Shown: piece by piece, positions 31,569 through 55,878 of the stretch
How the letters are laid out: each line of letters begins with the position of its first letter
Numbering within the stretch: position 1 is the stretch's first letter
Source of the DNA: Microvirga sp. TS319
GTDB lineage: Bacteria > Pseudomonadota > Alphaproteobacteria > Rhizobiales > Beijerinckiaceae
Direction: 5' to 3'
NCBI RefSeq assembly: GCF_041276405.1
Contig: NZ_JBGGGT010000001.1
Coordinates: 231,501-295,500 of the forward strand
DNA length: 64,000 nucleotides
Notes under the pieces: model-generated
Told to the model about the DNA's origin: nothing
Seen by the model: the letters and a program-made list of their open reading frames with translations, nothing else
Database searches by the model: none
Made by a program: the position numbers and the translations under genes

Positions 31569-31614
31569 CGTCACGACGATGGAAAGCTCCACGCTGCCGA
31601 ACAGGAGAAACGAT

Positions 31615-33054: not shown

Positions 33055-33137
33055 TGCAGCCTGCCTGCCAAACACAACGAACCTTACACACCTGCCCGCT
33101 TGAGAAAGCGGCACGCTAAAATTCGGGAGGATTATGA

Positions 33138-34748: not shown

Positions 34749-34754
34749 TCGGCG

Positions 34755-35537: not shown

Positions 35538-35566
35538 ACATTCAAACAAAGGGGGATCATGTCGTC

Positions 35567-39317: not shown

Positions 39318-39350
39318 GGCATGTCTCCCTTGCTGGCTTAAGTGCGGGGG

Positions 39351-40271: not shown

Positions 40272-41071
40272 GGCTGAAGTTCCGCGACTTGGCGCGCACG
40301 CTGCGTCGCCGCTCCGAGCAGGAACGCGAGGTCCGTGCCGGTCGACACGTATCTGGCGCCCATCTGCACGAACTCGGCAACAAGATCCTGGCGCGAAGAG
40401 AGGCCTCCCACTCCCGCATGCTTGCCATGCTTGCGACAGGCGGCGAGGGTCCGCTCGTATGCCTCGCGGACCCTCGGGTGATCGAACTGGCCCGCCACAT
40501 CCATGTCGGCCGTCAGGTCGTTGGTCCCGATCAGGGCAAGATCCACCCCCTCGACCGCCATGATCTCCTCTGCATTCAGCACTGCCTCAGCGGACTCGAA
40601 TTGCACGATGACCATGGTAGCCTCGTTCATGGCCGCGGAGGCCTGAGCCGCCGGGAAAGAGCGGAACTGCAGATGCGGCAGTCCTCCCGAAACGCCGCGC
40701 TGACCCAGCGGAGGGAACTTTGCGGCATTGACAATGGCCCGGGCCTCTTCAGCGGTCCTAACGTCCGGCGCGATCACGCCCATTGCACCACCGTCCAGAG
40801 CACGGGCGATGTATTCGGGCCTGTTGGCGGGAACTCGCACGAAGGGAGCAATCCCCGCTTCGAGCGCCATCATGCAGATCTGGCCGGTGGTGTCGAAGCT
40901 GAAGCTCGAATGTTCGAGATCGACGTAGATCGAGTCGAAGCCTGCGGTCTTCGCGATTCGGACGATCTCGACCCCCCGAACCAGACGGGCGGTCATCGAC
41001 GAGACCACCTCGCCACGGGCCAGTTTGCTTCTAAAGTTATTGTGCAGGATGCTTGCAAGATCCGCCGCCAT
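40268..41071 (-). CDS. HpcH/HpaI-family aldolase
   Basis: Class II metal-dependent aldolase of about 267 residues that splits 2-oxo-4-hydroxy acids to pyruvate (or oxaloacetate) and an aldehyde. Motifs are DSIYVDLEHSSFSFD, FVRVPANRPEYIARALDGGA, GVIAPDVRTAEEA, the metal-ligand Glu in VIVQFESAEAV and LIGTNDLTADM. The ATG at 41071 is chosen because GGGGA precedes it; an ATG 23 codons upstream is less likely. It is the first gene of the leftward operon. Confidence 0.88.
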   Translation of the reverse strand: MAADLASILHNNFRSKLARGEVVSSMTARLVRGVEIVRIAKTAGFDSIYVDLEHSSFSFDTTGQICMMALEAGIAPFVRVPANRPEYIARALDGGAMGVIAPDVRTAEEARAIVNAAKFPPLGQRGVSGGLPHLQFRSFPAAQASAAMNEATMVIVQFESAEAVLNAEEIMAVEGVDLALIGTNDLTADMDVAGQFDHPRVREAYERTLAACRKHGKHAGVGGLSSRQDLVAEFVQMGARYVSTGTDLAFLLGAATQRARQVAELQP

Positions 41072-41297
41072 GACATTTTCCCCGAGGCAGGTTTCATTAT
41101 CGCAAGAAGTGAACCTCAATCCCGAAACAGGTCCAATCATATCCTCGGGTGAAACTATAAACGGCTTTTATGTGGGTTGTGCCAGGGAATCTTCGCTGTC
41201 TTATTGGGACTCCATGCCGCCTCGCCGGGGCTTTCCCGCAAACGGTCGGTCTCAGAGTTTCAGATAATGCGACGTCAGTCGACGACGGGGGCGCGCG

Positions 41298-41735
41298 CGT
41301 TCAAGGGCAGGCATTGTGATCGCTTCGTGATCCTGCTCCGCATCCGGGGATCAGCGAGGGACGGGACCTCATCGCAGCCAAACGATTTTTGCAAGGCGAT
41401 CAAGCGAAACGGCCGGCCCGAGACGATCGTCATCGACGGCGGCCAGACCAATCGAGAACGCATCCTTCCGTGTGATGCGGAGGGCCGGCAGCAAGACTGT
41501 CCAAGACGCTGGTTCAATCCGATCAGGATCCGACAGGGTCAATACTTCGATAGCCGCATCGAGCACGATCACCGCACCGTCAAACGCCTTTTGCGATCGA
41601 TGTTCGGCTCCAAGTCCGCTGTCAGTGCACACGTGGTTCTGAGCGGGGTTGAGATGGTTCACATGAAGAGCAAAGGACAGGCGAAATACGCCGGTGCGTC
41701 ATAACCGTCCCTCGCCGAGCAGCTCAATATCCTAG
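41298..41735 (+). pseudogene. IS6-family transposase remnant with internal deletion
   Basis: The plus-strand frame first reads FKGRHCDRFVILLRIRG, matching the start of IS6-type transposases. It then jumps to FCKAIKRNGRPETIVIDGG, IRIRQGQYFDSRIEHDHRT and VLSGVEMVHMKSKGQAKYA, the second half of the same protein. The stretch that should carry the first catalytic Asp and much of the DDE core is missing. A TAA at 41702 precedes PSLAEQLNIL, which continues the ancestral C-terminus. A REP-like repeat abuts the end. The copy is not functional. Confidence 0.85.
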
Positions 41736-41845
41736 AGCATCGGACCCAAAAGTGGAATCCACTTTTGGGATCAATCCAATGCTCCACTCCTTAGATGAGC
41801 GCATCGTGCGAAAAACCGGGTCCACTTTTTCGCACCATGCGCTAG
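41732..41845. repeat. CTAG-bounded REP-like repeat, copy 6
   Basis: From CTAGAGCATCGG to GCGCTAG. It contains the perfect palindrome CCCAAAAGTGG-AAT-CCACTTTTGGG and a second arm pair GTGCGAAAAA / TTTTTCGCAC. It abuts the IS6 remnant. Confidence 0.85.
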
Positions 41846-41996
41846 CTGCGTGAGGCGTGCAGATAGAATAACCCTCTTTCCATGCCCATTCAAAATTCGG
41901 GACAGAGCCCTCCTTATTCGCGCTGTGAAATGCCGCGTCGGACGCAAAAGTAGGGGCCGGTTCTGCATGAAAAGATGCTCGCGATCACAATGTCAA

Positions 41997-42034
41997 AGCA
42001 TCGGACGTGAGTTCGATTTCACGTCCGATGCTGT
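41997..42034. repeat. Perfect 14-base stem-loop downstream of the CoA-ligase operon
   Basis: AGCATCGGACGTGA and its exact complement flank the eight-base loop GTTCGATT. It shares the GCATCGGACGTGA module with the repeats at 37994 and 56628. It lies about 30 bases past the end of the leftward operon ending at 42066, so it could stabilise or terminate that transcript, but no T-run follows. Confidence 0.7.
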
Positions 42035-42065
42035 CGTCGCGCGCGGCGGATGGTTGGGCTTAACC

Positions 42066-43145
42066 TTATTGCTGTAGCTTCGTGCGCAGCTCCTGCATCG
42101 AGCGGTGGACCTCCTCAAGGTCTGCCACGTCGAAGCCCTCTGCCAATGCGGGGGAATGCTGAGCCAGGCGCTCGCGCAGGACGCCCGTGTAGCGCGCGCG
42201 GCGATCTGTGCCGATGACGAGGCCATTCTTTTCCTCGAAGTGCCGGTTCCACGCGACTGCCTCCTCCTGCGATACGGACGATGGCAGGTTCAAAGATAGA
42301 ACACCGTCGGCAAGCTGCACTGGATAGCCTCCGGGCAGGCCGTAAGGCCCCGGAACATGGCCTGTCCATGAACGCCCTTCCGCGAGGGCGAGGATCATCG
42401 GAACGCCGCTGGCTCCCGAGATGTCGATCACCGGTTCCGGCGTCAGCTTCACATCCCGGAAGGTTCCGAACACATCGCTGATCTCCCGATCATCGATCCA
42501 GACCCGCGGCGCCGACCCGGTGCGCGCTTCGGGCGGCCGGCGCCATGCAGCGAGATGCTGGTAATGGGCGAGGACCTTGATGCGGTTCCTGTCGGTCAAA
42601 TTGTAGTCGGCCGCGAAGACATTGGACAGGATCGCGACATTGCCCATGCCGCAGATGACCTGATGTCCGAGCGCGTTAATCAACCCGTTCACGACATCCG
42701 GAAAGCTGCAATTGATCAGGGGAGCGGTGATTCCCAAGCGCGTCATGGCCTCTGCTACGCGGGAGCTGAGGAGCGCCTGAAAGACGGCGGTCGCGCTTAG
42801 CCCCCCCTCTTGGACGAGCTTGCTCCAGGCATCGTGTGATCCGGCAATCACGGATGAAGTCTGCACGGAAGCAGCCTGCACAACGACTGCTGGCTTCGTT
42901 TCTTCCAGCAGTTCGGCGGCGGCACCCTCGCCGAGAAGATCGGCTTCACGCGCGACGACAGTCACAGGTGTGTTGAAGATCGCGGCCCGTGCGCCAGCTG
43001 CGACTTTCAACCATTGCAGGCGCTCGCGGTTGCGGCCCGCAAGAACCACGCGGGTGGGGGCGCTCGCCGTGGCTGCGATGTCGAACAGGATACGGGCAGC
43101 AAATGCGCCGGTTCCTGTCAGGAGGATAGTCGGTTCCGTCGTCAT
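42066..43145 (-). CDS. Rossmann-fold protein of unknown function
   Basis: About 359 residues starting MTTEPTILLTGTGAFAARI, with an N-terminal NAD(P)-binding-like GTGAFAARI motif (G-x-G-x2-A) and AGRNRERL after the second strand. The mid-region INCSFPDVVNGLINALG and CGMGNVAIL recalls malate/saccharopine-dehydrogenase-type folds, but no known active site is recognised. The chosen ATG follows AGGAACC; an upstream ATG adds 13 residues. It begins right after the CoA-ligase stop and is the last gene of the operon, so it may act on the acid or CoA ester handled there. Confidence 0.75.
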   Translation of the reverse strand: MTTEPTILLTGTGAFAARILFDIAATASAPTRVVLAGRNRERLQWLKVAAGARAAIFNTPVTVVAREADLLGEGAAAELLEETKPAVVVQAASVQTSSVIAGSHDAWSKLVQEGGLSATAVFQALLSSRVAEAMTRLGITAPLINCSFPDVVNGLINALGHQVICGMGNVAILSNVFAADYNLTDRNRIKVLAHYQHLAAWRRPPEARTGSAPRVWIDDREISDVFGTFRDVKLTPEPVIDISGASGVPMILALAEGRSWTGHVPGPYGLPGGYPVQLADGVLSLNLPSSVSQEEAVAWNRHFEEKNGLVIGTDRRARYTGVLRERLAQHSPALAEGFDVADLEEVHRSMQELRTKLQQ

Positions 43146-43146
43146 C

Positions 43147-44682
43147 TCAGGTTCCTTTCGCGAGCCTGTCCCAACAATCGTCAAGGCTCCTGGAGAGTTT
43201 GTGCTTCATGATGCGCTGGCTCGGGGTACGCTCGAACTCGTCGACGACGGCAATGTAGCGCGGGTTCTGGTAGCTCGCGAGGCGAGTGGACAGCCATGTG
43301 GAGATCTCCGCAGGACGAACGCTTGCGCCGACCTTCGGCTTGATGAAAAGCTTGATATCCTGCTCGCCGATCTCTGCCGCAACGCCGATCATGGCACAAT
43401 CCTCTACGGACGGGTGGTCGGAGGCAATGCGCTCGACCTCCCAGGCGGAGACATTCTCCCCGCGAGAGCGGACGCTGTCGGTCATGCGGCCGTGGAAGAT
43501 CAGATTGCCTTCCGGATCGTACGTGCCGAGATCGCCCGTGTACAAGGCGCCGTTCCGAAGCGTCTTCTCGGTCGCGGATGGATTGTCGAAATACCCTGAC
43601 GAGATTGCGCCCGGCAGCGAAGTGCTAACCACGATTTCTCCGCGCTCGCCCTGAGGTACGGGCCTTCCATCGGCATCGAGAAGTTCCACCGTGAACCATG
43701 GCACGGGATCTCCGACCGAGCCTACGATACCCTTGTCGTTGAACGTCGTGATGCTGGAGGCTTCCGTCATGCCGTAGCATTCACGGATCTGAACGCCGAA
43801 GCGGCTTTGGAATGCCTCCCAGATATCGCCGGGACAGCCTCCGCCCCAGGCGATCCTCACGGCATGGTCACGGTCCATCGGAGATTCAGGCTGCTTGAGA
43901 AGGATCTGCAGGATGCCGCCGAGATAGTGAATGTGCGTTGCATTGTAGTCGCGCACCTGGCTCCAGAAGCGGCTCGCGCTGAAGCGATCCACCATCGCAA
44001 GCACCACGCCGTGGGTCATGGGCAGGCTCAGAAGCTGGGCGCCGCCGATATGGTAGAGCGGCTCCCACACGAACATCACGTCGCCTGGACGAGAGGCTGC
44101 GACGAGGCTGACGCCTTCTCCTGCCAGCCGGATCATCCGGTTGGAGACGATCACGCCCTTTGGCTGTCCGGTCGTGCCGGAGGTGTACATGATGGCGAAG
44201 GGCGCGTCCAAGGCAGGCGCCGGTTCCGTGAAGGGGGCTCCCGTGCTCAGAGCCTGAGCCAGGCGCGGGTGATCCTCCGCTTCCCCGTGAATGAGGAAGC
44301 CCTCGCGGGGACGCTCCGCTTCGCATTCGACGATCGTCGGCAGGAGATCGGCATCGGCAACCACGAGAGCCGGCTTCGAGTGATTGATGATGTATTGCAA
44401 GCCCTGGCCGCGCTGCTGGGCGTTGAGCGGAACCCACACGAGGCCGGCCTTGGCGAGGCCGAAGACCACAGCAAGAGTTTGCACGCTGTTGCGCATCATC
44501 ACGGCAACATGGTCCCCGGACTGCAAGCCGCGGGAGCGCAGCCAGGCGGCCAGGGCGGATGACTGGGAATCCAGCATGGCAAAGGTGACGGGGTCTCCAT
44601 TGAACCGAGCGAAGATTCCATCGGGGTTCTTGTCGGCATGCTGCCGCAGGAGATCGGCGAGACAGATATTATCGAGTGACAT
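43147..44682 (-). CDS. AMP-binding acyl-CoA synthetase (CaiC-like)
   Basis: ATP-dependent acid-CoA ligase of about 511 residues. The P-loop-like MYTSGTTGQPKGV, ECYGMTEASS, YTGDLGTYDPEGNLIFHGR and the hinge/A8 region SRGENVSAWEVERI are intact. The C-terminal ERTPSQRIMKHKLS holds candidate catalytic lysines. The style resembles crotonobetaine/carnitine-CoA ligases. The ATG at 44682 is chosen because upstream residues look non-coding. It lies in an operon with an ABC importer and an enoyl-CoA hydratase, so it probably activates the imported acid or a product of it. Confidence 0.9.
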   Translation of the reverse strand: MSLDNICLADLLRQHADKNPDGIFARFNGDPVTFAMLDSQSSALAAWLRSRGLQSGDHVAVMMRNSVQTLAVVFGLAKAGLVWVPLNAQQRGQGLQYIINHSKPALVVADADLLPTIVECEAERPREGFLIHGEAEDHPRLAQALSTGAPFTEPAPALDAPFAIMYTSGTTGQPKGVIVSNRMIRLAGEGVSLVAASRPGDVMFVWEPLYHIGGAQLLSLPMTHGVVLAMVDRFSASRFWSQVRDYNATHIHYLGGILQILLKQPESPMDRDHAVRIAWGGGCPGDIWEAFQSRFGVQIRECYGMTEASSITTFNDKGIVGSVGDPVPWFTVELLDADGRPVPQGERGEIVVSTSLPGAISSGYFDNPSATEKTLRNGALYTGDLGTYDPEGNLIFHGRMTDSVRSRGENVSAWEVERIASDHPSVEDCAMIGVAAEIGEQDIKLFIKPKVGASVRPAEISTWLSTRLASYQNPRYIAVVDEFERTPSQRIMKHKLSRSLDDCWDRLAKGT

Positions 44683-44705
44683 CGCAAGTACTCGGCTTGT
44701 GAGTT

Positions 44706-46466
44706 TTAAGTCGTACGGCGGAAACGTTCCGCAAGGAGGAGGAGAACGGTGACGATCACGAAGACCACGACGGACACCGCAGCGAGCGTCGGATTGAGCT
44801 GTAGGATCATGTCGTCCCACATCTGCTTGGGAAGCGTCGTCTTAATGCCGCCGCTGACGAAGATCGCAATCGTGAGCTCGTCGAAGGAGGTGATGAAGGC
44901 AAACAGGAAGGCCGCGACCAATCCCCCTTTCACGAGAGGCACCGTGACGAGAAGCAGGGTTTTGAGCCGGTTGGCTCCAAGGACTGCCGCCGCCTGATCG
45001 AGACGCCAGTCGTAGTTCTTCAGGATCGCCGTGATGGTCACGAAGGCGAAGGGAAGGGCCAGGACGGTGTGACCGATCACGAGGCCGAGGTCCGTCGCGA
45101 CGAGACCGATCTGGGCGAAGAGATAGAACAGGCCGACCGCTATGATGATGCGCGGGACGATCAAGGGAGCAAGGAACGTCGCGAAGACGAGCCCACCCCA
45201 ACGGGTGTTGGCGCGGGCCAGCGCCAGTGCCGCAAGGCCACCGATGAAGGTCGCGCAGATCGCTGTCGCGGCAGCCACGCCGAAGGAGCGCAAGGTGGCG
45301 GAGAGCCAGACGGGCGACGAGAAATAGGTCTCGAACCACTGCAGGCTGTAACCCGGAGGCGGGAATTCCAGGAACTGCGAACTCGTGAAGCCGATAGGGA
45401 TCACAAGGAGAGTCGGCAACACCAGAAACACCAGGGCCAGCGTGCAGTAAATCGGCAGCAGCCGGCTCGTTCCGCGCACTCCGATCACCCGTCGGACCGC
45501 ATCCGCCAACATGGCGCTTACCTTGGCGACGGCCCTGAGGATGCTGAGACCGAGCAGGCGCAGGCGCCCGGCTCCGCCGTTCTGTGCCGAGGTGTCGCCC
45601 GAGAGCGACGAGAGGCCGAACAGACGGTCATAGATCCAGACGGTGACGAGTGCTGCCACCAGCATCATGGCCGCAAGCGCGCCTGCGAACGCCCAGTTGA
45701 GGAGCTCCTGCACCTGCGTGATGATGAGCTGCGCCAGCATCGTCTCACGTCGTCCGCCCAGGAGGGCTGGCACGATGAAGAAGCCGAGAGAAGAGATGAA
45801 GACGAGCAGGCCACCGGCGGTCACACCGGGCAGGGAGAGCTTGAAATATACGAGCCAGAAGGATTGAGCCGGTGCTGCGCCCAGCGCCTGCGCCGCCTGG
45901 ATCAAACGCCGGTCGATGCCGATCATGACAGGCAGCATGGTGAGCACAGCGAGCGGAACCATGGCATGGACCATGCCGACCATGACGCCGAACTCGTTGT
46001 AAGCAAGGGGGAGCGGATGGGAGAGAATGCCGCTTCCGGTGAGCATGCTGTTGATCACGCCGGTGCGTCCGAGCACGACCATCCAGGCGAAGGTCTTCAC
46101 AAGATAGCTCGTCCAGAACGGTACCATCACGAGAAGTACCATGCGCTCCCGCAATCCCTCCTTTAGCCCAGCTAGCCAATAGGCGAGGGGATATCCGAGC
46201 AGCACGGAGAACAGCGCCGTATTGGCGGCGATCTTGAACGTAATCCCTAGTACCTGAAGATAGACGTCCGTGTTCGCAATGCGGGCATAGGTTGCAACGC
46301 TGAGAGCGCCACTCGCCGGGTCCTGCACGCTCAGGGCCAGAAGGCGCAGGACCGGGTACAGGAAGAAGATGGCCAGGAACGCGAGTCCCGGCGCGGCAAG
46401 CCAAAGTGCATTGGGACGAAGAAGTCGCTGTCGGAGAGGGATGGCGGGAGCGGTGATTGCTGTCAT
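44706..46466 (-). CDS. ABC transporter permease, two permease units fused in one chain
   Basis: Inner-membrane protein of about 586 residues. It contains two complete binding-protein-dependent permease domains: residues about 20-285 resemble PotB and residues about 325-580 resemble PotC. The first EAA-type loop is around LIQAAQALGAAPAQSFWLVYFKLS without its last residues; the second is around LDQAAAVLGANRLKTLLLVTVP. A linker of about 40 residues joins them. Most spermidine/putrescine-type importers use two separate permeases. An ATG eight codons upstream (46490) overlaps the ATPase stop and is also possible. Confidence 0.9.
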   Translation of the reverse strand: MTAITAPAIPLRQRLLRPNALWLAAPGLAFLAIFFLYPVLRLLALSVQDPASGALSVATYARIANTDVYLQVLGITFKIAANTALFSVLLGYPLAYWLAGLKEGLRERMVLLVMVPFWTSYLVKTFAWMVVLGRTGVINSMLTGSGILSHPLPLAYNEFGVMVGMVHAMVPLAVLTMLPVMIGIDRRLIQAAQALGAAPAQSFWLVYFKLSLPGVTAGGLLVFISSLGFFIVPALLGGRRETMLAQLIITQVQELLNWAFAGALAAMMLVAALVTVWIYDRLFGLSSLSGDTSAQNGGAGRLRLLGLSILRAVAKVSAMLADAVRRVIGVRGTSRLLPIYCTLALVFLVLPTLLVIPIGFTSSQFLEFPPPGYSLQWFETYFSSPVWLSATLRSFGVAAATAICATFIGGLAALALARANTRWGGLVFATFLAPLIVPRIIIAVGLFYLFAQIGLVATDLGLVIGHTVLALPFAFVTITAILKNYDWRLDQAAAVLGANRLKTLLLVTVPLVKGGLVAAFLFAFITSFDELTIAIFVSGGIKTTLPKQMWDDMILQLNPTLAAVSVVVFVIVTVLLLLAERFRRTT

Positions 46467-46486
46467 GCTTGCGGTTCCCTTACCGT

Positions 46487-47563
<1,077 letters not shown>

Positions 47564-47820
47564 CGTAGCGCTTTCCTTCCCTAATCTCGAAATCGTGCGC
47601 GGGTACGGTGTTGAATGGACCCACGACGTCCGCCAATTCAAAAATGCAACAGATACCGGCTTGTGCAGAGCCCACGTGCGCCGTTGGCACCGGCTCGCAA
47701 CGGAGCCGTCGGGCGTCAGCAAAGGCTCACGCGCGTCCGGTTCTCAAATTCCAATCCGGTCCTGCCGAAGGTGCCGCCGCCTCTCATGTTCTCCACGGAT
47801 TGAAGCGACGGCACTTGCCA
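47564..47820. other. Gap inside the ABC operon
   Basis: About 257 bases separate the binding-protein gene from the ATPase gene, the largest gap in the leftward operon. No gene, terminator or repeat is evident. A secondary promoter or mRNA-processing site is possible. Confidence 0.3.
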
Positions 47821-48888
47821 TTAGGTCAGGAGCCAGCTGTTGAAACGCTCGGTCACAGCAGCGCGGTTCTCACTCCACCAACTCTCGTTGGCGACCCGCA
47901 TCTTCTTGAGGTTCTCGGGCGATGTCGGCAGAATCTTCGCCCGATCCGCCGAGATGCTCTTATAGGCATCGAGATTGGTCGGGCCATAGGCCAGGACTTC
48001 CGTGTAGGCGGCCTGCCGATCAGGCGCGGAGCAGAACTTGATGAACTGCTTCGCGGCATCCGCCCGCGGGCAGCCCTTCGGAATCGCCCAGCCTTCAATC
48101 GAGTAGAGCCCCTGATCCCAGACGATCGTCGCCGGTGCGCCACCGTCGATCGCCGATTGCAGGCGTGCGTTCCACCCGCTGATGATATCAACCTCCCCGC
48201 TCTGCAGGAGCTGTGTCGATTGCGCGCCTCCGGTCCACCAAACAGCGATGTTCTGCTTGATCTTGTCCAGGCTCTTGAACGCTCGGTCGACATCGAGAGG
48301 GTAAAGCTGATCAATGCTCACGCCGTCAGCCATCAGAGCCTGCTCAAGCGAGTCGATGGGATTCTTGCGCAGGGAGCGGCGGCCAGGGAACTTCTCCACG
48401 TTCCAAAAATCGGCCCAGCTCTTCGGTCCATTGCCCTTGAACTGATCGTTCCGGTAGGCGAAGACGGTGGAATATACGTCCGTACCCATCCAGTAATCGG
48501 TGATGGCTTCAGGCATCAGGCCGGGAGCGGCATCGCGGGTGAAGCCGATAGGCTCGAGAAGGTTCTGCTTCACCAGGATGTCCCGCGCCGAGAGCGTCAG
48601 CGTGCAAACGTCCCAGGTGTAGGACTTCGTCTCGACGATGGCCTTGAACTGGGCGGTAGGCTCAGCCTCGCGGGCCACGTTGACGACCTTGATCCCGGTC
48701 GCCTTCTCGAACGGATCGTAGAAGGCCTTGCGAAAGGCCGGGCCGAAGGGGCCACCGGGATCGGCGACGGTGATCGTCGTTGCCGCAAGGGCCCGGCCGG
48801 TGAGGCCCGGCATTCCGAGGGCCAGGGCCGCGCCACCTGCGGTCTTGAGCAGGTGTCTCCGATTGATGATCAGATTGGTATTGCTCAT
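47821..48888 (-). CDS. ABC transporter substrate-binding protein (PotD/AfuA-like)
   Basis: Periplasmic binding protein of about 355 residues. The N-terminus MSNTNLIINRRHLLKTAGGA is Tat-like (RRHLLK) with cleavage near RALAATTI. Class motifs such as ITVADPGGPFGPAFRKAFYDPFEKATGIKV fit the extracellular solute-binding family used for polyamines, opines and related compounds. GGAGG precedes the ATG at 48888. It is the second gene of the leftward operon and should define what that operon degrades. Confidence 0.9.
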   Translation of the reverse strand: MSNTNLIINRRHLLKTAGGAALALGMPGLTGRALAATTITVADPGGPFGPAFRKAFYDPFEKATGIKVVNVAREAEPTAQFKAIVETKSYTWDVCTLTLSARDILVKQNLLEPIGFTRDAAPGLMPEAITDYWMGTDVYSTVFAYRNDQFKGNGPKSWADFWNVEKFPGRRSLRKNPIDSLEQALMADGVSIDQLYPLDVDRAFKSLDKIKQNIAVWWTGGAQSTQLLQSGEVDIISGWNARLQSAIDGGAPATIVWDQGLYSIEGWAIPKGCPRADAAKQFIKFCSAPDRQAAYTEVLAYGPTNLDAYKSISADRAKILPTSPENLKKMRVANESWWSENRAAVTERFNSWLLT

Positions 48889-48946
48889 GTGCATCCTCCA
48901 GTTTCGCAGGTCCTTGACCTGCATTCCCTCGTGGTGTGGCGGGGCT

Positions 48947-49720
48947 TTAGCCCTTCTTTGCCGCTGCCTTGCGAGCCAAGAATTGTTCCATCATCCGTGC
49001 CGGTTCGCCGGATGCGTATGCCTCGCGCTGGATGCGAATGCCGGCTGAAAGGCAGTCGAGGAAACCTTCCTCCGTCATTTCGCGGAAACGCTGTCGGTCC
49101 AAGCGCATCGCGACCGGTGGCTTGCTCGCGAGGTGTTCTGCAAGGGCGAGCGATTCACTCATCACCTTTTCCTGCGGCACCAAGCGGTTGATGACGCCGA
49201 TGCGGTAGCACTCGTCCGCATCCATCATGCGCCCGGTCAGCGTGAGATCAATGGTTCTTGCGAGACCGATGTGCTCCCGCATGATCCAGGGACCGGTGGT
49301 GCTGGCGATTCCGGAATTGATCTCCGGCTGACCCATGGTTACGCCGGGATGGCCGACGCGGAGGTCGCAGAGGAGGGCCACCTGGAAGGCCGAGCCCGCG
49401 GCGACGCCGTTCAGCGCCGCGACAATTGGTTTCGAGAGCGAACGGATGCGGTCATAGAGGCGTCTCCACTCGCCCATCCATTGCTCAGCACGGTCGGGGT
49501 TGAAGGTCTTCGTTTCGTTGAGGTCCTGACCGGCGCCGAAGGCACGGTCGCCTGCACCGGTGAGAATGATCGCGCGAACCTCCGCATCCTCCTCCATGGT
49601 CGTCAGGGTGGCGGTCAACTCCTCCCGCATGGCCGAATTCCAGGCGTTCAAAATCTGGGGGCGATTCAAGGTGATGATTCCGACGGCACCCCGCCGCTCC
49701 CTCAAGATAAACTCAGCCAT
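48947..49720 (-). CDS. Enoyl-CoA hydratase / isomerase family protein
   Basis: Crotonase-fold enzyme of 257 residues. The oxyanion-hole segments GAGDRAFGAGQDL and NGVAAGSAFQVAL are intact, and an acidic residue is present in MGQPEINSGIAS where the family carries its catalytic Glu. It is the first gene of the leftward operon, with AGGAGG upstream. A 15-base palindrome lies just before that ribosome-binding site, suggesting repression by the divergent IclR protein. Confidence 0.9.
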   Translation of the reverse strand: MAEFILRERRGAVGIITLNRPQILNAWNSAMREELTATLTTMEEDAEVRAIILTGAGDRAFGAGQDLNETKTFNPDRAEQWMGEWRRLYDRIRSLSKPIVAALNGVAAGSAFQVALLCDLRVGHPGVTMGQPEINSGIASTTGPWIMREHIGLARTIDLTLTGRMMDADECYRIGVINRLVPQEKVMSESLALAEHLASKPPVAMRLDRQRFREMTEEGFLDCLSAGIRIQREAYASGEPARMMEQFLARKAAAKKG

Positions 49721-49742
49721 AGCCCGGAACCTCCTGAAGTTT

Positions 49743-49757
49743 TATTGCAATGCAATA
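49743..49757. promoter_or_regulatory. Palindromic operator 1, probable IclR site
   Basis: TATTGCAATGCAATA is a perfect 7-1-7 inverted repeat in the divergent gap between the enoyl-CoA hydratase gene and the IclR gene. It matches operator 2 (50762-50776) at 13 of 15 bases. Confidence 0.75.
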
Positions 49758-49848
49758 GTTGTTATTGTATGTTCCGCTCAACTTAGTGCTATTGTCAACT
49801 CCTATTGAGATTTTTATCGAGACCGTTCAGATGAGAGGGAGTTCGAGG

Positions 49849-50661
49849 ATGGCGATCAGCAAAACGAAGGCGGCCGACGAAGAAGAGCCGGCAAAGCGCG
49901 GCCGTGCCACGGATCCCCTGATGGTGATGTCTGTGGAAAAGGCTTTTCGTGTACTGTCCGTCTTCGATCACCACAGCACGAACCTGAGCCTTTCTCAGAT
50001 TGCCGCGGCAACCGAGATGGATGTGAGCGCGGCGCAACGCTTCACGCACACGCTGACCAAGCTGGGCTATCTGCGCAAGGACCTCGATACGAAGCGGTTC
50101 GAGCTGACAGCCAAGACACTGCAACTTGGTTACTATTACCTGCGCAGCAATCGCCTCGTAGAGCGGGCAATGCCCTATCTGTTGCATCTGTCCAAGGAGA
50201 CGGAGGAGACGGTCAACATGACCGTGCTCGATGATACGGAGATCATCTTCATCTCCCGATTCATGAGTCGGCACATGCTGAATACGAACGTGATCATTGG
50301 CTCTCGCATGCCGGCCTATTGCACCGCTCCAGGCATGGCGATCCTGTCGCGCCTGCCGGAGGATGAGGCCGTTGCGATTCTCGAACGCTCCGACCGAAAG
50401 GCATACACGCCGTCAACGACGTGGAAGCTCGACGATCTCGTGAAGAAGCTGCGCGTTTCGCGGGAGCAGGGATACGCCACCGCTTTCGATGAGTTTTATC
50501 GGGGCGACGCGTCCATCGCCGCAGCGGTTGTCGCAGCAAACAATCGCCCGGAAGGCGCAATCAACATCGCTGTTCCGCTCTCGCGCTTCTCGCCCGAGGC
50601 AGTCGTGGAGCGCTTCGCCATGCATATCATCTCGGGAGCGCATTCCATCTCATCCACATGA
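49849..50661 (+). CDS. IclR-family transcriptional regulator
   Basis: Regulator of about 270 residues starting MAISKTKAADEEEPAKRGR. The N-terminal winged HTH spans about residues 28-90 (MSVEKAFRVLSVFDHH...LSLSQIAAATEMDVSAAQRFTHTL). The C-terminal effector domain has IFISRFMSRHMLN and the late GYATAFDEFYRGDASIAAAV. An ATG six codons upstream (49831) lacks a ribosome-binding site; GAGGGAG supports 49849. It stands between two divergent catabolic operons and probably controls both by a shared palindrome. Confidence 0.9.
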   Translation: MAISKTKAADEEEPAKRGRATDPLMVMSVEKAFRVLSVFDHHSTNLSLSQIAAATEMDVSAAQRFTHTLTKLGYLRKDLDTKRFELTAKTLQLGYYYLRSNRLVERAMPYLLHLSKETEETVNMTVLDDTEIIFISRFMSRHMLNTNVIIGSRMPAYCTAPGMAILSRLPEDEAVAILERSDRKAYTPSTTWKLDDLVKKLRVSREQGYATAFDEFYRGDASIAAAVVAANNRPEGAINIAVPLSRFSPEAVVERFAMHIISGAHSISST

Positions 50662-50761
50662 GGTGAACTCCGTCTGGCTGATTTTCGAGCCGACTTGCCG
50701 ACAAACCAACCGCCTTTTCCTTGACAGCCCTTTTCCGACAATCTTACCATTCCACAAAACT

Positions 50762-50776
50762 TATTGCATTGCGATA
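50762..50776. promoter_or_regulatory. Palindromic operator 2, probable IclR site
   Basis: TATTGCATTGCGATA is a near-perfect 7-1-7 inverted repeat, 19 bases upstream of the first gene of the oxidase operon. It is a close copy of operator 1, so one regulator probably acts at both. Confidence 0.75.
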
Positions 50777-50794
50777 AATTCGTGGTGGGACGGA

Positions 50795-51124
50795 ATGCCA
50801 AACGAGCCAAAGCAGAAGGTGCATCAAGGCCAGTTCGTAAGGGCTGTCTCCCGCCAAGGCGCAACGCTGCGTCTGACAATCGACGGAGAAATGGTCGAGG
50901 CGGTCGAAGGCGACAGCTTGCTTGCGGTTCTTCTGCTGAACGGAAGAGCTGTCCGACATCTCGAATTCGGTGGCGCACCGCGTGCCGGCTTCTGTCTCAT
51001 GGGAGCCTGTCAGGATTGCTGGATCGCACTCGGAGACGGCGAGCGCGTGAGGGCCTGCACGACTCCCGCAGCCCACGGCATGGTCATATGGACCGATCTC
51101 CAGAAGGCCCAAGCCCATGCGTAA
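50795..51124 (+). CDS. Small [2Fe-2S] subunit of an HcnA/opine-oxidase-like complex
   Basis: Ferredoxin-like protein of 109 residues. Cys67, Cys72, Cys75 and Cys88 (GFCLMGACQDCWI...RACT) form a plant-type [2Fe-2S] set. It corresponds to HcnA of hydrogen-cyanide synthase and to the N-terminal ferredoxin part of sarcosine/opine oxidase alpha subunits. A longer upstream frame overlaps the IclR gene and is not used. It overlaps the next gene by eight bases, so the subunits are likely made in fixed ratio. Confidence 0.88.
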   Translation: MPNEPKQKVHQGQFVRAVSRQGATLRLTIDGEMVEAVEGDSLLAVLLLNGRAVRHLEFGGAPRAGFCLMGACQDCWIALGDGERVRACTTPAAHGMVIWTDLQKAQAHA

Positions 51125-52484
51125 TGTGGTGATCGTCGGCGGCGGTCCGGCAGGCATACGAGCGGCATCCGTTCTGGTCGGGGCAGGCCTGAAGCCCATT
51201 CTCGTGAACGAGACGAGGCAGGCAGGAGGCCAAGGCTATCGAGCGCCGGCGAAAAGCCTTGCTCTCGATATCAAGTCTCTGATGGGCTCCGAAGCGGGAA
51301 AGTACCAGCGCCTCCATTCGCTCTTCGCGTCTCTCCAAGAGCAGATAGATTATCGGCCTGGCACTCTCGTCTGGGGCGTGCATGATAAAGTGTTGCACAC
51401 CTCGTGCGACGGAGTGGCGGGTACGATCCCCTATGACGCCCTGATCCTCGCAACCGGTGCCACGGATCGGACCATGCCTCTGCCGGGATGGACACTCCCC
51501 GGAGTCTTCACCTTGGGCGGCGCGCAAGTGATCCTGAAGGATCAGGGATGCCTGATCGGAAGCCGCATCGTTTTTCTCGGAAGTTCGCCGCTGCTGTTTC
51601 TGGCGGCGCTGCAATACCACAAGTCCGGCGCGTCGATTGCGGCGGTCGTGGACACGACACCGCTTTCCGCCAAACGAGCTGCCTTGCGCGATCTGGCAGC
51701 AAGTCCGCGCACGCTGGCGCGGGGCGTGATGTACCGTGCGGCGCTCCACATGGCCGGCATTGCCGTCATCGACGGTGCGACGCCGCGCGGAATCGACGGT
51801 AAGACCCATGTCGAGGGTGTGCGGATCACGGACGGCCGGGGCCGCGAAAGGCGCATCTCCTGCAATGCCGTCGCATATGGCTACGGCCTTAAGCCGGAGA
51901 CCCAACTGGCTGAACTCGCCGGCGCCCGCTTCCAGTTCGATCCGGACTTCCGGCTCTGGCTGCCGGAAATGGACGCCGATGGTCGGGCCGGGGACAATCT
52001 CTATCTAGCCGGCGATGGAAGTAGGATCGGAGGAGCGGACGCCGCGGAGGCGAGCGGTGCGCTTGCGGCTCATGCGCTGCTTGCAGACATGGGCCTGCCA
52101 CATCCGGCGTCCGAGTTGGAACCCCTCCGACGGGAAGTCGAGCGCCTGCGGAGATTTCAGCGAGGGCTCGCGAAGGCTTTCGCATGGCCGGTTGCCCAGG
52201 CCGCGGCCCTTCCCGACGAAACCATCGCTTGCCGATGCGAGGCGGTGACCGTGGGAGAAATCCGCGCCGCCTTGCATGCGCCCTTGGGTCCGCGGGAGGT
52301 CAACCGCGTCAAGGCGATCACACGTTGCGGCATGGGCCGGTGCCAGGGGCGCTTCTGCGGTCCGGCACTGCAGGAGATCGTGGCCGAAGCGTGCGGCACG
52401 CCAATTGCGGATGCCGGTCGGTTGCGTATGCAGGCGCCGGTAAAACCCATTCCCCTTCACGCAGCTGCGGAGATGGAGCCATGA
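51117..52484 (+). CDS. FAD/NAD-binding subunit of an HcnB / OoxA-like oxidase
   Basis: Flavoprotein of 455 residues. The N-terminal FAD motif VVIVGGGPAGIRAASVL and the ILATGATDRTMPLPGW segment are typical of the alpha subunit of octopine/nopaline oxidase and HcnB. The C-terminal BFD-like [2Fe-2S] domain has CRCEAVTVGEI followed by ITRCGMGRCQGRFCGPAL. The gene couples to its neighbours on both sides (eight-base overlap before, ATGA after). Such subunits pass electrons from the amine-oxidising flavin to the membrane chain. Confidence 0.9.
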   Translation: MRNVVIVGGGPAGIRAASVLVGAGLKPILVNETRQAGGQGYRAPAKSLALDIKSLMGSEAGKYQRLHSLFASLQEQIDYRPGTLVWGVHDKVLHTSCDGVAGTIPYDALILATGATDRTMPLPGWTLPGVFTLGGAQVILKDQGCLIGSRIVFLGSSPLLFLAALQYHKSGASIAAVVDTTPLSAKRAALRDLAASPRTLARGVMYRAALHMAGIAVIDGATPRGIDGKTHVEGVRITDGRGRERRISCNAVAYGYGLKPETQLAELAGARFQFDPDFRLWLPEMDADGRAGDNLYLAGDGSRIGGADAAEASGALAAHALLADMGLPHPASELEPLRREVERLRRFQRGLAKAFAWPVAQAAALPDETIACRCEAVTVGEIRAALHAPLGPREVNRVKAITRCGMGRCQGRFCGPALQEIVAEACGTPIADAGRLRMQAPVKPIPLHAAAEMEP

Positions 52485-53662
52485 CGACAAAGGCGCGGGT
52501 TGTTGTTGTCGGTGGCGGACTTATCGGTACATGGACGACGCTTTTCCTCGCCAAGCGCGGATTGGATGCGATCCTGATCGAGAAAGGCATCGTCGGCGCC
52601 CAGTCCAGTGGCGTGAACTTCGGCAACTTGCGTTTGCAAGGACGCTATCCAGGGCAGTATCCGCTGTCCCTCAGGTCGCAGGCGCTCTGGGAGGACATCG
52701 AAGAACTCATCGGCGACAGGTGCGAATTCGAGAGAACCGGTCACCTCTATGTCGCGATGAACGAGGCCGAGCAGGAGAAGTTGGAGCAGCACGCACGCGT
52801 CGCCGAGAGCCATGGGCTCTCAATCGAGCGGATCGGACGCGATGAGCTTCGCCGCCGTTGGCCATGGTTGGGGGAGGGGCCTCAGGCAGCCACCTATTCG
52901 GCGCGCGATGCGACGGCCAATCCTCGTCTCGTATCAGTCGCTGTCGCCCGAGCCGCACAGCGCTTCGGCGCTGAAATCGTCGAGAATACGCGCGTGAAGG
53001 AGGTGCGCCGGAGAGGAGCCGGTTTCTCCGTGGAAGCCGATAGCGGACGCGTGGTGGATTGCGACGCGGTGGTGAACTCCGCAGGCGCCTGGGCTCTGAA
53101 TATTGCGGAAGCCTTTGGCGAGACCGCACCTATGTTCGCAGCCGGGCCTCCGCAATTCGTGACCGAGCCTGTTCCTTATCAGGTCACGCCTTCCGTGCAG
53201 GCCGTCGACGGCTCCGTGATCTTTCGCCAAATTCCGCGTGGCAATGTGATTTTTGCGGGCTACCCGCGCACGGCGGCCGATCCGGTACTCAACCGCGCTC
53301 CCGTGCCGCCTGAGAAGACTCTCAATGGTATGCGCAACCTCATGAAGATCGCGCCGTTCCTGAAATCGGCGCAGGTCATTCGTGTTTGGTCCGGCATCGA
53401 AGGTTATTTACCCGACATGCTTCCGGTTATCGGCGAGAGCGAGACGACGCCTGGCTTGTTTCACGCCTTCGGATTCTGCGGTCATGGCTTTCAGGTAGGT
53501 CCCGGGGTGGCTGCGGTGCTGGTCGATCTCATCGTGAGTGGCAGGACTGCCACGCCGATCGATCTTTTCTCCATCAATCGCTTCAAGAATGCGGTTCAGG
53601 TCTCAGACAAGCTGGCGCGTGAGTTCGACGGGCCGATTGCTGCAGGCAGCCGGGCAAGGTAA
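52481..53662 (+). CDS. FAD-dependent amine-oxidising subunit (HcnC / OoxB / DAO-like)
   Basis: D-amino-acid-oxidase-fold protein of 393 residues, starting MTTKARVVVVGGGLIGTWTT. The FAD signature and the late motif AFGFCGHGFQVGPGVAAVL are intact, and IEGYLPDMLPVIGES is the usual C-terminal patch. It is the predicted catalytic subunit of the trimer with the two preceding gene products, oxidising a C-N bond of an amino or imino acid. The ATG overlaps the previous stop. Candidate substrates are opines, D-hydroxyproline-like imino acids or N-methyl amino acids. Confidence 0.88.
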   Translation: MTTKARVVVVGGGLIGTWTTLFLAKRGLDAILIEKGIVGAQSSGVNFGNLRLQGRYPGQYPLSLRSQALWEDIEELIGDRCEFERTGHLYVAMNEAEQEKLEQHARVAESHGLSIERIGRDELRRRWPWLGEGPQAATYSARDATANPRLVSVAVARAAQRFGAEIVENTRVKEVRRRGAGFSVEADSGRVVDCDAVVNSAGAWALNIAEAFGETAPMFAAGPPQFVTEPVPYQVTPSVQAVDGSVIFRQIPRGNVIFAGYPRTAADPVLNRAPVPPEKTLNGMRNLMKIAPFLKSAQVIRVWSGIEGYLPDMLPVIGESETTPGLFHAFGFCGHGFQVGPGVAAVLVDLIVSGRTATPIDLFSINRFKNAVQVSDKLAREFDGPIAAGSRAR

Positions 53663-53667
53663 AGGCA

Positions 53668-54633
53668 ATGGGTACGCTGCTTTATCTCTCAAGCGAAGAC
53701 ATTGCCGGACTCGACCTAAAGCCCCGGGCCGCACGTGAAGCAATTGCACGTGCCTTTCGCCTGCATGCTGAGGGTAGGGCCCACGTTCAACCGAAGCTCA
53801 CCGTGCAGGTCGGCCCGGGGCACTTCTTTCAATCACTCTGCGCCGCCATGCCCGACCCTCCCTTCGCGGCGACGAAATGGGTGGGCGTTGCCGCCGCCAA
53901 CAGTGCGCGCGGTCTGCCGAACGTCAATGGCCTGATCGTGGTGAGCGATTTCACGACGGGAGTTCCGGTAGCGGTTCTCGACGGAACGAGTCTCACGGTG
54001 CTGCGCACGGCTGCCATGTCGGCGCTGGCTGCTTCCTATCTCGCACGCCCAGACAGTTCCACCATCGGCTTCATCGGATGCGGCGCCCAAGCCTATGGGC
54101 ATCTCGCCAGCCTTCGGGATGTACTGCCTGGACTTCGCACGGTTGTGTGCAACTCGCGTGGACGCTCATCCGCTGAAAAGCTCGCGGTCTATGCTCGTGA
54201 AAGCGGCCTCGGCGCCAAGGTCGTGGATTCGTCGGACGAAGTTCTTGCCTGTGACGTGGTCGTCTCGACGGTTCCCGCGCAGCCCGGTCTCGAGCCGTTC
54301 CTCGACGCCTCGCTCCTGAGGCCCGGCTGTTTCGTCGCTGCGGTCGATCTGGGCCGTCCCTGGCACGGCGAGGGGCTGCGCTCTCTCGATATTCTCGCCA
54401 CAGACGATCATGGTCAGGCAGCGGACCCGTCGAACCGTGCCAAGCTCCGCTACCCGGGTCCTTTCGATGCTGACCTAGCATCCCTCGTGGCTAGGACTGC
54501 TCCCGGCCGCACGGATGAGAAGCAACGCGCCATGTTCCTATTCCCCGGCTTCGCTCTCGGCGACCTCGCCATCGCGGCCGAGGTGATCGCCGAAGCCGGC
54601 CGGACCGGTTGCGGACTACGTCTTCCACTGTGA
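53668..54633 (+). CDS. Ornithine cyclodeaminase / mu-crystallin family protein
   Basis: NAD(P)-dependent enzyme of 321 residues. The Rossmann motif GFIGCGAQAYGHLASL and the substrate-side KWVGVAAANSARGLPNVNG are typical. Family members are ornithine cyclodeaminase, alanine dehydrogenase, or ketimine/pyrroline-carboxylate reductases. Ornithine cyclodeaminase lies next to opine oxidase genes on Ti plasmids, so this pairing hints at opine-like metabolism. It starts six bases after the oxidase gene. The exact reaction cannot be decided from sequence alone. Confidence 0.87.
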   Translation: MGTLLYLSSEDIAGLDLKPRAAREAIARAFRLHAEGRAHVQPKLTVQVGPGHFFQSLCAAMPDPPFAATKWVGVAAANSARGLPNVNGLIVVSDFTTGVPVAVLDGTSLTVLRTAAMSALAASYLARPDSSTIGFIGCGAQAYGHLASLRDVLPGLRTVVCNSRGRSSAEKLAVYARESGLGAKVVDSSDEVLACDVVVSTVPAQPGLEPFLDASLLRPGCFVAAVDLGRPWHGEGLRSLDILATDDHGQAADPSNRAKLRYPGPFDADLASLVARTAPGRTDEKQRAMFLFPGFALGDLAIAAEVIAEAGRTGCGLRLPL

Positions 54634-54645
54634 GGGAGAAGAGCC

Positions 54646-55878
54646 TTGGCTAACATCGCCATCGTCGGAGCAGGCGTCATCGGAGTTTCATGCGCAGCCT
54701 TTCTCCAGCGGGACGGACACTCCGTTACGATCTACGATCCTTTGCCACCCGGAGAAGGATGCTCTTTCGGCAATGCAGGAAGCATTGGCCCGGGCTCCGT
54801 GGTGCCGCTGTCCACACCGGGCATCGTGCGGCAGGCCGCCTCATGGATTGCCGATCCCGATAGTCCCTTGTGGATCGACTGGCGCTATCTACCGCGTGCC
54901 ATGCCTTGGCTCGCCAGGTTCATCGCGGCGGGAGCCAGCCCGCGCATCAACGGCATTGCAAAGGCGCTTCGCGCGCTCCATGCCGATAGCTTCACACACT
55001 ACCGAACGCTTTTAGGTGACGATGCCGGAAGCCTGCTCAATGTGTCCGGTCAGCTCTACCTCTATGAGAGTGATGCAGCTTTCGCCAAGGATGCTCTCGG
55101 TCGAGAGCTCAGGGCTTCGCTAGGAATTCGGTCGGAGACTTTGAATCCCGACGAAATCCGCCAGTTGGAGCCTTCGCTGAAACCTCGGTTTGCGAAGGCG
55201 GTCTACCTTCCCGATTCCAGCCACTGCAGCAATCCACATCGCCTCGTAGCAACCATTGCCGAAGATATCTCTCGGAACGGAGGACGCTTCGTTCGAGCGT
55301 CGGTCAAGGACTTCGAGCAGGATGCCGGACAGGTCCGCGCTATCGTAACGGATGCCGGACGCATGGCGTGCGATATGGTGGTCATCGCGGCCGGCGCGTG
55401 GTCTCGGCGGTTGACAGGCCGGCTCGGTCTCAGGATCCCGCTTGAAAGCCTGCGCGGCTACCATGTGATGCTGCCCATGCCGGAGACGGCTCCAAAGCGC
55501 CCACTCTATCCACTGGCCGCAAAGATCATGATGACGCCGATGGAGCATGGTCTTCGGATTGCGGGGACGGCGGAGATCGCTGGTCTCGACGCACCGATGA
55601 ACGAGCGGCGTGCCGCCGCCCTCGCAAAGCTTGCGAAACGCTATTTCCCAGATATGACCAGCGACCCCATCTCCGTTTGGATGGGACACCGCCCCGCGAC
55701 ACCTGACTCCCTGCCGGTTATCGGTCCGTCATCTCAGTACAGGAACGTCATGCTTGCTTTCGGCCATGGTCAGACAGGATTGATTGGCGGCGCAACAACA
55801 GGCCTTCTGGTCTCTGACTTAGTTGCAAGCAGGAAACCAACAATCGATCCTTACCCTTACCGGGCAAGCCGCTTCTAA
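54646..55878 (+). CDS. FAD-dependent oxidoreductase, DadA (D-amino-acid dehydrogenase)-like
   Basis: Flavoenzyme of 410 residues, starting at a TTG (MANIAIVGAGVIGVSCAAFL) after GAGGGAGAAG. The N-terminal FAD fold, the GCSFGNAGSIGPGSVVPLSTPG segment and the late LPVIGPSSQYRNVMLAFGHGQTGL match D-amino-acid dehydrogenase small subunits. It is a second, distinct DAO-fold enzyme in the same operon as the trimeric oxidase, so the pathway may have two oxidation steps or process two stereoisomers. Confidence 0.9.
   Translation: MANIAIVGAGVIGVSCAAFLQRDGHSVTIYDPLPPGEGCSFGNAGSIGPGSVVPLSTPGIVRQAASWIADPDSPLWIDWRYLPRAMPWLARFIAAGASPRINGIAKALRALHADSFTHYRTLLGDDAGSLLNVSGQLYLYESDAAFAKDALGRELRASLGIRSETLNPDEIRQLEPSLKPRFAKAVYLPDSSHCSNPHRLVATIAEDISRNGGRFVRASVKDFEQDAGQVRAIVTDAGRMACDMVVIAAGAWSRRLTGRLGLRIPLESLRGYHVMLPMPETAPKRPLYPLAAKIMMTPMEHGLRIAGTAEIAGLDAPMNERRAAALAKLAKRYFPDMTSDPISVWMGHRPATPDSLPVIGPSSQYRNVMLAFGHGQTGLIGGATTGLLVSDLVASRKPTIDPYPYRASRF

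Follow-up and report, generated by a model that had tools for sequence, protein, structure and literature searches.

Two divergent operons lie at positions 42066–55878 of a 64 kb stretch of the Microvirga sp. TS319 genome (6.26 Mb, two contigs), and the locus raises the question of whether they form one system and what that system degrades. This whole 64 kb stretch of DNA, G000:C1:231501–295500, is referred to here as the window. The two operons constitute a real and conserved catabolic regulon, and no description of this gene combination was found in the open-access literature searched. It is scattered over soil, root-associated and marine Alphaproteobacteria, and the closest named relatives of the cluster are in Microvirga. 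That it is a single IclR-controlled regulon for the catabolism of a small N-substituted amino-carboxylate is, on balance, probable. The genes and sites are as follows (CoA, coenzyme A; OCD, ornithine cyclodeaminase).

42066–43145, minus strand: g1, an LDH/MDH-fold Rossmann protein of 359 amino acids (fold from a structure model)
43147–44682, minus strand: AMP-forming acyl-CoA ligase of 511 amino acids (PF00501, E 7.3e-74; PF13193)
44706–46490, minus strand: fused PotB/PotC-type ABC permease (PF00528; NCBIfam PotB in the first half, PotC in the second)
46487–47563, minus strand: PotA-like ABC ATPase with a TOBE domain (PF00005, PF08402)
47821–48924, minus strand: PotD/GABA-type periplasmic binding protein (PF13416)
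48947–49720, minus strand: non-canonical crotonase with W81/Q113/E133 (PF00378)
49743–49757, no strand assigned: first copy of the palindrome, TATTGCAATGCAATA, upstream of the crotonase operon
49759–50661, plus strand: IclR-family regulator, likely ATG start at 49849 (PF09339, PF01614)
50762–50776, no strand assigned: second copy of the palindrome, TATTGCATTGCGATA, upstream of the trimer operon
~50795–51124, plus strand: small [2Fe-2S] subunit C, or fer2 (PF13510 Fer2_4, E 4e-24)
51117–52484, plus strand: A subunit, Pyr_redox_2 with BFD-like [2Fe-2S] (PF07992, PF04324, PF17806)
52481–53662, plus strand: B subunit, a DAO-family catalytic flavoprotein (PF01266), in an opine-dehydrogenase type-2-like group by tree
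53668–54633, plus strand: OCD/mu-crystallin-family protein (PF02423)
54646–55878, plus strand: DadA-like D-amino/imino-acid dehydrogenase (PF01266; NF001933 at 231 bits, below the cut-off of 383)

All genes named in the original prediction are open reading frames (ORFs) with the family assignments given there, as determined by Pfam and NCBIfam scans, but the IclR regulator between the two operons was overlooked. The Fer2_4 match of subunit C was scored in a longer ORF (50489–51124), and its likely start is taken from the translation.

Conservation of the two operons as one unit

A profile of g1 made from 21 sequences identifies 80 loci in named genomes of Microvirga, Bosea, Chelatococcus, Brucella (formerly Ochrobactrum), Salipiger, Roseovarius, Paracoccus, Nitratireductor, Afifella and other genera. 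Counted over the 80 stretches, 68 have the ligase, 66 have A and 66 have B; the crotonase and the IclR gene are found in 65 each, fer2 in 64, the permease in 63, the ATPase in 62 and the binding protein in 61. Ligase, crotonase, A, B and IclR are all found in 60/80 loci, and 57 of these have the importer as well.

Within the genus of the window, g1 is present in 11 of 48 genomes. In ten of the 11, B (67–100% identical) and a DadA-family gene lie on the g1 contig at a distance of 9.8–12.7 kb; the identity of the DadA-family gene is 80–100% in nine genomes and 40% in G458. The eleventh, G485, has g1 without a B or DadA match at the thresholds used. None of the 37 genomes without g1 has B above 47% or DadA above 41% identity, and paralogues of lower identity are common in them. 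The association of g1 with linked B and DadA (10/11 vs 0/37) gives p = 1.7e-9 by the Fisher test, a value that overstates independence because genomes of one genus share ancestry. The g1 coordinates of G485 match those of L005 (Microvirga tunisiensis), where ligase, crotonase and g1 are present and the importer, regulator and trimer are not seen in the stretch.

Several points weigh against this picture. The full set is missing in 20/80 loci, and short contigs (e.g., L010, L015, L047, L049, L065) explain only some of these; L056, L070 and L075 are examples of long stretches that differ. The g1 loci are linked by descent and are not independent trials. The 40% DadA of G458 is weak evidence because DadA-family paralogues at 36–42% are common in the genus. 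Nevertheless, the arrangement exceeds chance because it recurs in many genera and the same palindrome is present at both operons. Co-occurrence of the two operons in other genomes had been proposed as a test of the system, and the 60/80 loci and the genus survey bear it out: the two operons recur as a conserved unit and have an operator-like palindrome in common. Judged from their co-occurrence, the two operons are inherited as one unit.

Shared palindrome and IclR regulator

The spacer ahead of the crotonase and the spacer ahead of fer2 bear the same palindrome. With at most one mismatch, TATTGCAnTGCnATA occurs in two places in the window, 49743 and 50762, each on both strands; these four strand matches compare with 0.01 expected. 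At up to two mismatches, the palindrome is found upstream of the crotonase in 51/65 g1 loci, upstream of fer2 in 42/64 and upstream of both in 35/61, and the background is 0.03 per 400 bp. Of 14 loci inspected individually, three from Bosea (L011, L013, L016) lack the palindrome at both operons and Microvirga L001 lacks it before fer2, which counts against the single-regulon reading. The two operons are probably one regulon, as the shared sites suggest, and the IclR protein is the likely reader of the palindrome. The palindrome makes the regulon findable and testable.

The rest of the genome has three more places at up to one mismatch. One of these (L166, G000:C1:1171072), with one mismatch, is flanked by a second IclR gene, 33% identical, and by an Opp-type operon; this locus is possibly a sister regulon. 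A wider regulon was rejected; the other two places are between the 3' ends of two ORFs and inside an ORF.

The crotonase active site

The crotonase is the most interesting part of the cluster. It had been termed an enoyl-CoA hydratase, a name that its active site contradicts. The catalytic Glu pair of rat enoyl-CoA hydratase is at positions 144 and 164. Across 65 aligned crotonases, Gln replaces the first catalytic Glu and the second Glu is kept, and Gln followed by Glu is found in 72/72 relatives; the same columns are Glu/Glu in the L115 and L116 crotonases of the genome itself. The protein is thus a non-canonical crotonase.

W81, Q113 and E133 of the window crotonase align with W79, Q111 and E131 of the carboxymethylproline synthase CarB. 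The Trp/Gln/Glu triad is present in 72/72 crotonases that are at least 55% identical among the loci examined and is absent from two distant ones. It is also found in 16/16 aligned relatives from a class survey (see below). The genome has 18 crotonase-like ORFs, 15 of which are readable at the Gln and Glu positions, and the triad occurs in 0/14 of the others. In other Alphaproteobacteria there are tandem crotonase pairs (L138, L139, L142, L145–L148), where one member has Trp/Gln/Glu and the other has Glu, Val or Leu at the Gln position.

A study of CarB (PMC6542682) describes the coupling of an acyl-CoA enolate to the imine of pyrroline-5-carboxylate, and the alteration of W79 and Q111 to steer stereoselectivity with methylated pyrroline-5-carboxylates. 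The reverse, cleaving reaction is suggested because the CarB-like site adjoins a CoA ligase and imine-handling enzymes. Cleavage by a retro-Mannich step is a tentative proposal from aligned residues and gene context, and an unlikely one as matters stand. Its extended form is likewise doubtful. Here the crotonase would carry out carboxymethylproline-synthase chemistry in reverse and split a CoA-activated beta-amino acid, cyclic or N-substituted, into an acyl-CoA and an imine for OCD, ProC or DadA partners, within a modular operon family whose swappable front ends would strip methyl, acyl or carboxyalkyl groups from nitrogen. If true, the retro-Mannich step would be a new type of catabolic reaction. 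Amino-acid catabolism would gain a C-C cleavage, and a reaction of carbapenem biosynthesis would have its degradative counterpart.

The relation to CarB is distant, and this argues against the proposal. CarB ranks 56th among the solved crotonase relatives at 85 bits, about level with the hydroxycinnamoyl-CoA hydratase-lyases. It is 24% identical to the window crotonase (59/249 aligned residues), its H229 is not conserved (Gln in the window crotonase), and its placement as sister (94/71) is weakly supported and on a long branch. In addition, seven tandem sister paralogues keep the Trp and Glu, but the residue that they have in place of the Gln is Glu, Val or Leu. A close relative at 358 bits, 4kd6, has a solved structure without an assigned function, so the crotonase subgroup of interest already has a solved member.

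The ligase and crotonase may instead act on the released acid by ordinary chemistry, either a beta-oxidation-like hydration or a retro-aldol cleavage like that of hydroxycinnamoyl-CoA hydratase-lyase. The best-scoring named relatives are enoyl-CoA hydratases, the hydratase-lyases score like CarB, and the second catalytic Glu is retained; hydroxycinnamoyl-CoA hydratase-lyase is also without the first Glu. However, Gln at the first Glu position in 72/72 relatives speaks against hydration, and the cluster genes include neither an acyl-CoA dehydrogenase nor a thiolase. Ordinary chemistry is a possible but fairly unlikely explanation.

Importer, ligase and g1

The nearest solved relatives of the binding protein include 4i1d, the agropine-binding protein 6hly and the GABA sensor 6dgv. 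A motif comparison shows that it has the motifs WW..GAQS and WN(A/G)R in common with GABA sensors and 4i1d, but not with AgtB. The ligase is below the cut-off in each of the 25 NCBIfam models inspected, e.g., 266 vs 651 bits for the CaiC-type model NF005947.

The original prediction left the Rossmann protein unassigned. Pfam and NCBIfam scans give no match for it at E ≤ 0.001, which agrees with that description, but a structure model assigns it the LDH/MDH fold among the best 50 matches listed in a fold search. Comparison with an MDH profile gives no significant similarity (hhalign probability 0.4%, E 0.17). Some sources name g1 as a saccharopine-dehydrogenase relative; this was rejected, as the LDH/MDH fold was found among those 50 matches.

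The flavin dehydrogenase trimer

The C, A and B genes occur together with the family domains of an opine dehydrogenase. The nearest solved relative of B is 1y56_B, the beta subunit of a Pyrococcus L-proline dehydrogenase that was deposited under the name sarcosine oxidase. A tree was built from a chosen subset of 30 rows, and the 16 rows of g1-linked B subunits group in it as a single clade (100/99), adjacent to other fer2-A-B operons. A wider group (91/64) also takes in B2 subunits encoded by B1-C-A-B2 operons of Azospirillum and of a Ti plasmid; these B2 subunits are uncharacterised, and the tree contained no BjOdhB2 or BtOdhB by name. NoxB of the noc regions and the B1 subunits form a separate group (100/99), near which long branches meet, and NoxB is ~25% identical to the window B. 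The earlier description of B as OoxB/HcnC-like is replaced by a placement with type-2-like subunits, and orthology with NoxB is rejected on the basis of the separate groups, with the reservation that long branches lie near the NoxB group.

These data bear on whether the locus is a true opine system, with the trimer acting as an opine dehydrogenase that yields an L-amino acid and a keto acid. The wider group with B2 is in its favor. The published opine dehydrogenase of Bradyrhizobium has the order B1-C-A-B2 (OdhB1-C-A-B2) and that of B. thailandensis the order C-A-B, and type-2 B subunits are described as near archaeal L-proline dehydrogenase, according to PMC4575208. Evidence to the contrary is the separate position of NoxB and the GABA-binder motifs of the binding protein, where AgtB differs; in addition, the opine routes need neither CoA ligase nor crotonase, as far as the accessible descriptions go. 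A true opine system is decidedly improbable. The trimer probably works like the wider flavin opine-dehydrogenase class, judged by its domains and tree position; opine use is unproven.

OCD, DadA and exchangeable modules

The nearest solved relatives of the OCD-family protein are archaeal alanine dehydrogenase 1omo and then Delta1-pyrroline-2-carboxylate reductase 6t3e, and it is a probable imine reductase by these affinities. A search at E ≤ 1e-45 took in 50 of the 80 g1 loci and covered 48 genomes (L050 and L064 left out; the L064 locus itself has OCD at 46.5%). OCD matches are found in 35/48 genomes, and in 25 of the 35 they are within 3 kb of the locus by coordinates. L012, L016 and L035 were removed from the 25 because their loci show no OCD there, which leaves OCD at the cluster in 22/48. 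In L013, L014, L037, L046 and L068 it is just outside the locus, with contig identity judged from matching numbers only. The genomes with OCD at the cluster are the eight Microvirga searched (L005 left out), M. brassicacearum, Bosea BK604, two Chelatococcus, Alsobacter, two Salipiger, Pseudolabrys, Limoniibacter, Paracoccus, Nitratireductor, Afifella, an Elioraea metagenome-assembled genome (MAG) and a Hyphomicrobiales MAG. The genes that come directly after g1 in Nitratireductor L063 are DadA and OCD.

In a survey of 385 sampled genomes of the class, the crotonase is found at E ≤ 1e-75 in 12, own genome included, so the core is scattered and not common. Four of the ten stretches examined (L150, L153, L154, L155) have the crotonase and importer with a DadA 46–49% identical to that of the window, and three of these also carry an OCD protein (38–48% identical). 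L151, L152, L157, L158 and L159 have neither DadA nor OCD in the stretch. DadA and OCD are recurrent partners of the crotonase and importer, on the basis of the four and three of ten distant stretches, and their inclusion as parts of the system is upheld. For OCD this applies to the 22/48 genomes and, within Bosea, to one of 12 named genomes.

The trimer and g1 form one module, and relatives swap in others while keeping the crotonase and often OCD or DadA. There is a PhyH gene in L150. Rhizobium and Mesorhizobium plasmids have ProC, OCD (49% identical) and AstE-like genes, Shinella has Zn-alcohol and succinate-semialdehyde dehydrogenases, and Chelativorans has an SBP_bac_5 importer next to the same enzymes. 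Several alternative modules, among them Rieske oxygenases and the AstE- and ProC-like genes, appear to have C-N bonds as their targets, as would be expected for an N-substituted amino acid; the PhyH and alcohol dehydrogenase modules are neutral on N-substitution.

Other distributions weigh against the favored reading. Eleven of the 12 named Bosea are without OCD at the cluster (ten have it elsewhere, one has no match). The crotonase-importer-ligase core of Azospirillum and Caballeronia has no trimer, OCD or DadA within 12 kb. L150 and L153–L155 have no ligase relative in the stretch, although L156 has one at 44%. CoA activation by a linked ligase is consequently not universal, and the absence of a linked ligase from these four distant loci lowers the odds of a retro-Mannich step.

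Some of these modules are suggestive of a betaine or N-methyl amino acid (proline-betaine-like) system, where the trimer would be an N-demethylase and DadA and OCD would process the demethylated cyclic amino acid. Rieske oxygenases are present in L153, L155 and L156, and the two that were scanned best match glycine betaine monooxygenase GbcA in NCBIfam; L155 has a DHDPS-family gene and Sox-like A/B genes, and L154 has a formaldehyde-activating GFA domain. However, the Rieske genes are in other genomes, their scores of 152 and 149 bits fall far short of the curated cut-off of 670, and no Rieske or GFA match is found among the window ORFs scanned. A ligase and crotonase are not known to have a role in proline-betaine or sarcosine routes, which also counts against it. 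Such a system is improbable here.

Proposed pathway

The favored reading, a regulon for a small N-substituted amino-carboxylate, can be stated as a pathway. The PotD-type ABC importer would take up the compound. The C-A-B trimer would dehydrogenate a C-N bond and so remove or open the N-substituent. The amine and (cyclic) imine formed in this way may be interconverted by DadA and OCD, with one enzyme carrying out the oxidation and the other the reduction. The carboxylate would be converted by the ligase to its CoA thioester, which the crotonase, with the Trp/Gln/Glu set and not the hydratase Glu/Glu pair, may cleave, most attractively by a retro-Mannich step that would release an acyl-CoA enolate (acetyl-CoA) and an imine. 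The g1 protein would probably reduce or oxidise a keto or hydroxy acid freed en route. The steps are given in one possible order, and the N-substituted amino-carboxylate is a predicted substrate class.

The general idea of the original prediction (import, C-N cleavage, recycling of the imino acid and CoA-dependent breakdown) is retained. Its opine emphasis is unsupported, as B does not group with NoxB, the binding protein is GABA-type and nopaline import in noc regions uses a different importer, NocPTQM.

Surrounding genes

Beside the cluster, at 38205–41140 on the minus strand, are HpcH/HpaI aldolase, Amidohydro_2 and Ldh_2 genes. They were considered as members of the system and rejected, being with the cluster at identities of at least 50% in 1/80 loci (L002, Microvirga sp. 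ACRRW). Downstream of DadA, at 57190–59619 on the plus strand, are a penicillin-amidase-family acylase and a 471-amino-acid ORF with a weak tannase-like (DUF6351) match. Genes for an aldehyde dehydrogenase, a thiamine pyrophosphate-dependent enzyme, an SDR protein, an acyl-CoA dehydrogenase and a class III CoA-transferase are in a row at 31327–37983 (plus strand), possibly a second CoA-dependent catabolic operon. A BCCT-family betaine/carnitine/choline transporter is at 19076–21076 (minus strand).

Comparison with known systems

The homarine, trigonelline and proline-betaine pathways were considered as described versions of the system and rejected, with no matching cluster in the accessible portions of the literature searched. 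The Variovorax iad auxin cluster (PMC10374108) was rejected as well; the terms enoyl-CoA, CoA ligase, crotonase and ornithine do not occur in its main text.

Like the flavin opine dehydrogenases (OdhABC of Pseudomonas putida and Bradyrhizobium, NoxAB/OoxAB of Ti plasmids), the window encodes three subunits: a small [2Fe-2S] protein, a Pyr_redox/BFD A subunit and a DAO B subunit. OCD is nearby, as in noc regions. The order C-A-B is that of B. thailandensis as given in PMC4575208. In contrast to the opine systems, the window B is in its own clade near type-2-like subunits, the importer is GABA-type and not NocT-type, and a CoA ligase, a crotonase, an LDH-fold protein and an IclR regulator are added.

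The heteromeric DAO-type dehydrogenase, OCD-family and DadA-like enzymes resemble those of D-hydroxyproline and proline-betaine catabolism (lhp, stc). The lhp genes encode a DAO-type heteromeric dehydrogenase with an OCD-family reductase, and the D-hydroxyproline operon has a DHDPS-family deaminase and an epimerase next to the dehydrogenase. Unlike lhp and stc, the ORFs scanned in 38205–55878 include no DHDPS-family deaminase, proline-racemase-type epimerase or Rieske protein, and a ligase and crotonase are present.

An AMP ligase, with 266 bits to the CaiC-type model, together with a crotonase is reminiscent of the CaiC/CaiD carnitine pathway. The ligase is far under the cut-off of 651, however, flavin dehydrogenases are added, and CaiD has a Glu pair in its active site that the window crotonase is without. 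The crotonase is like carboxymethylproline synthase (CarB/ThnE) of carbapenem biosynthesis in that Trp79, Gln111 and Glu131 of CarB have their equivalents at the aligned positions. It differs from CarB in the 24% identity and the change of H229 to Gln, and it is found in a catabolic context with an AMP ligase.

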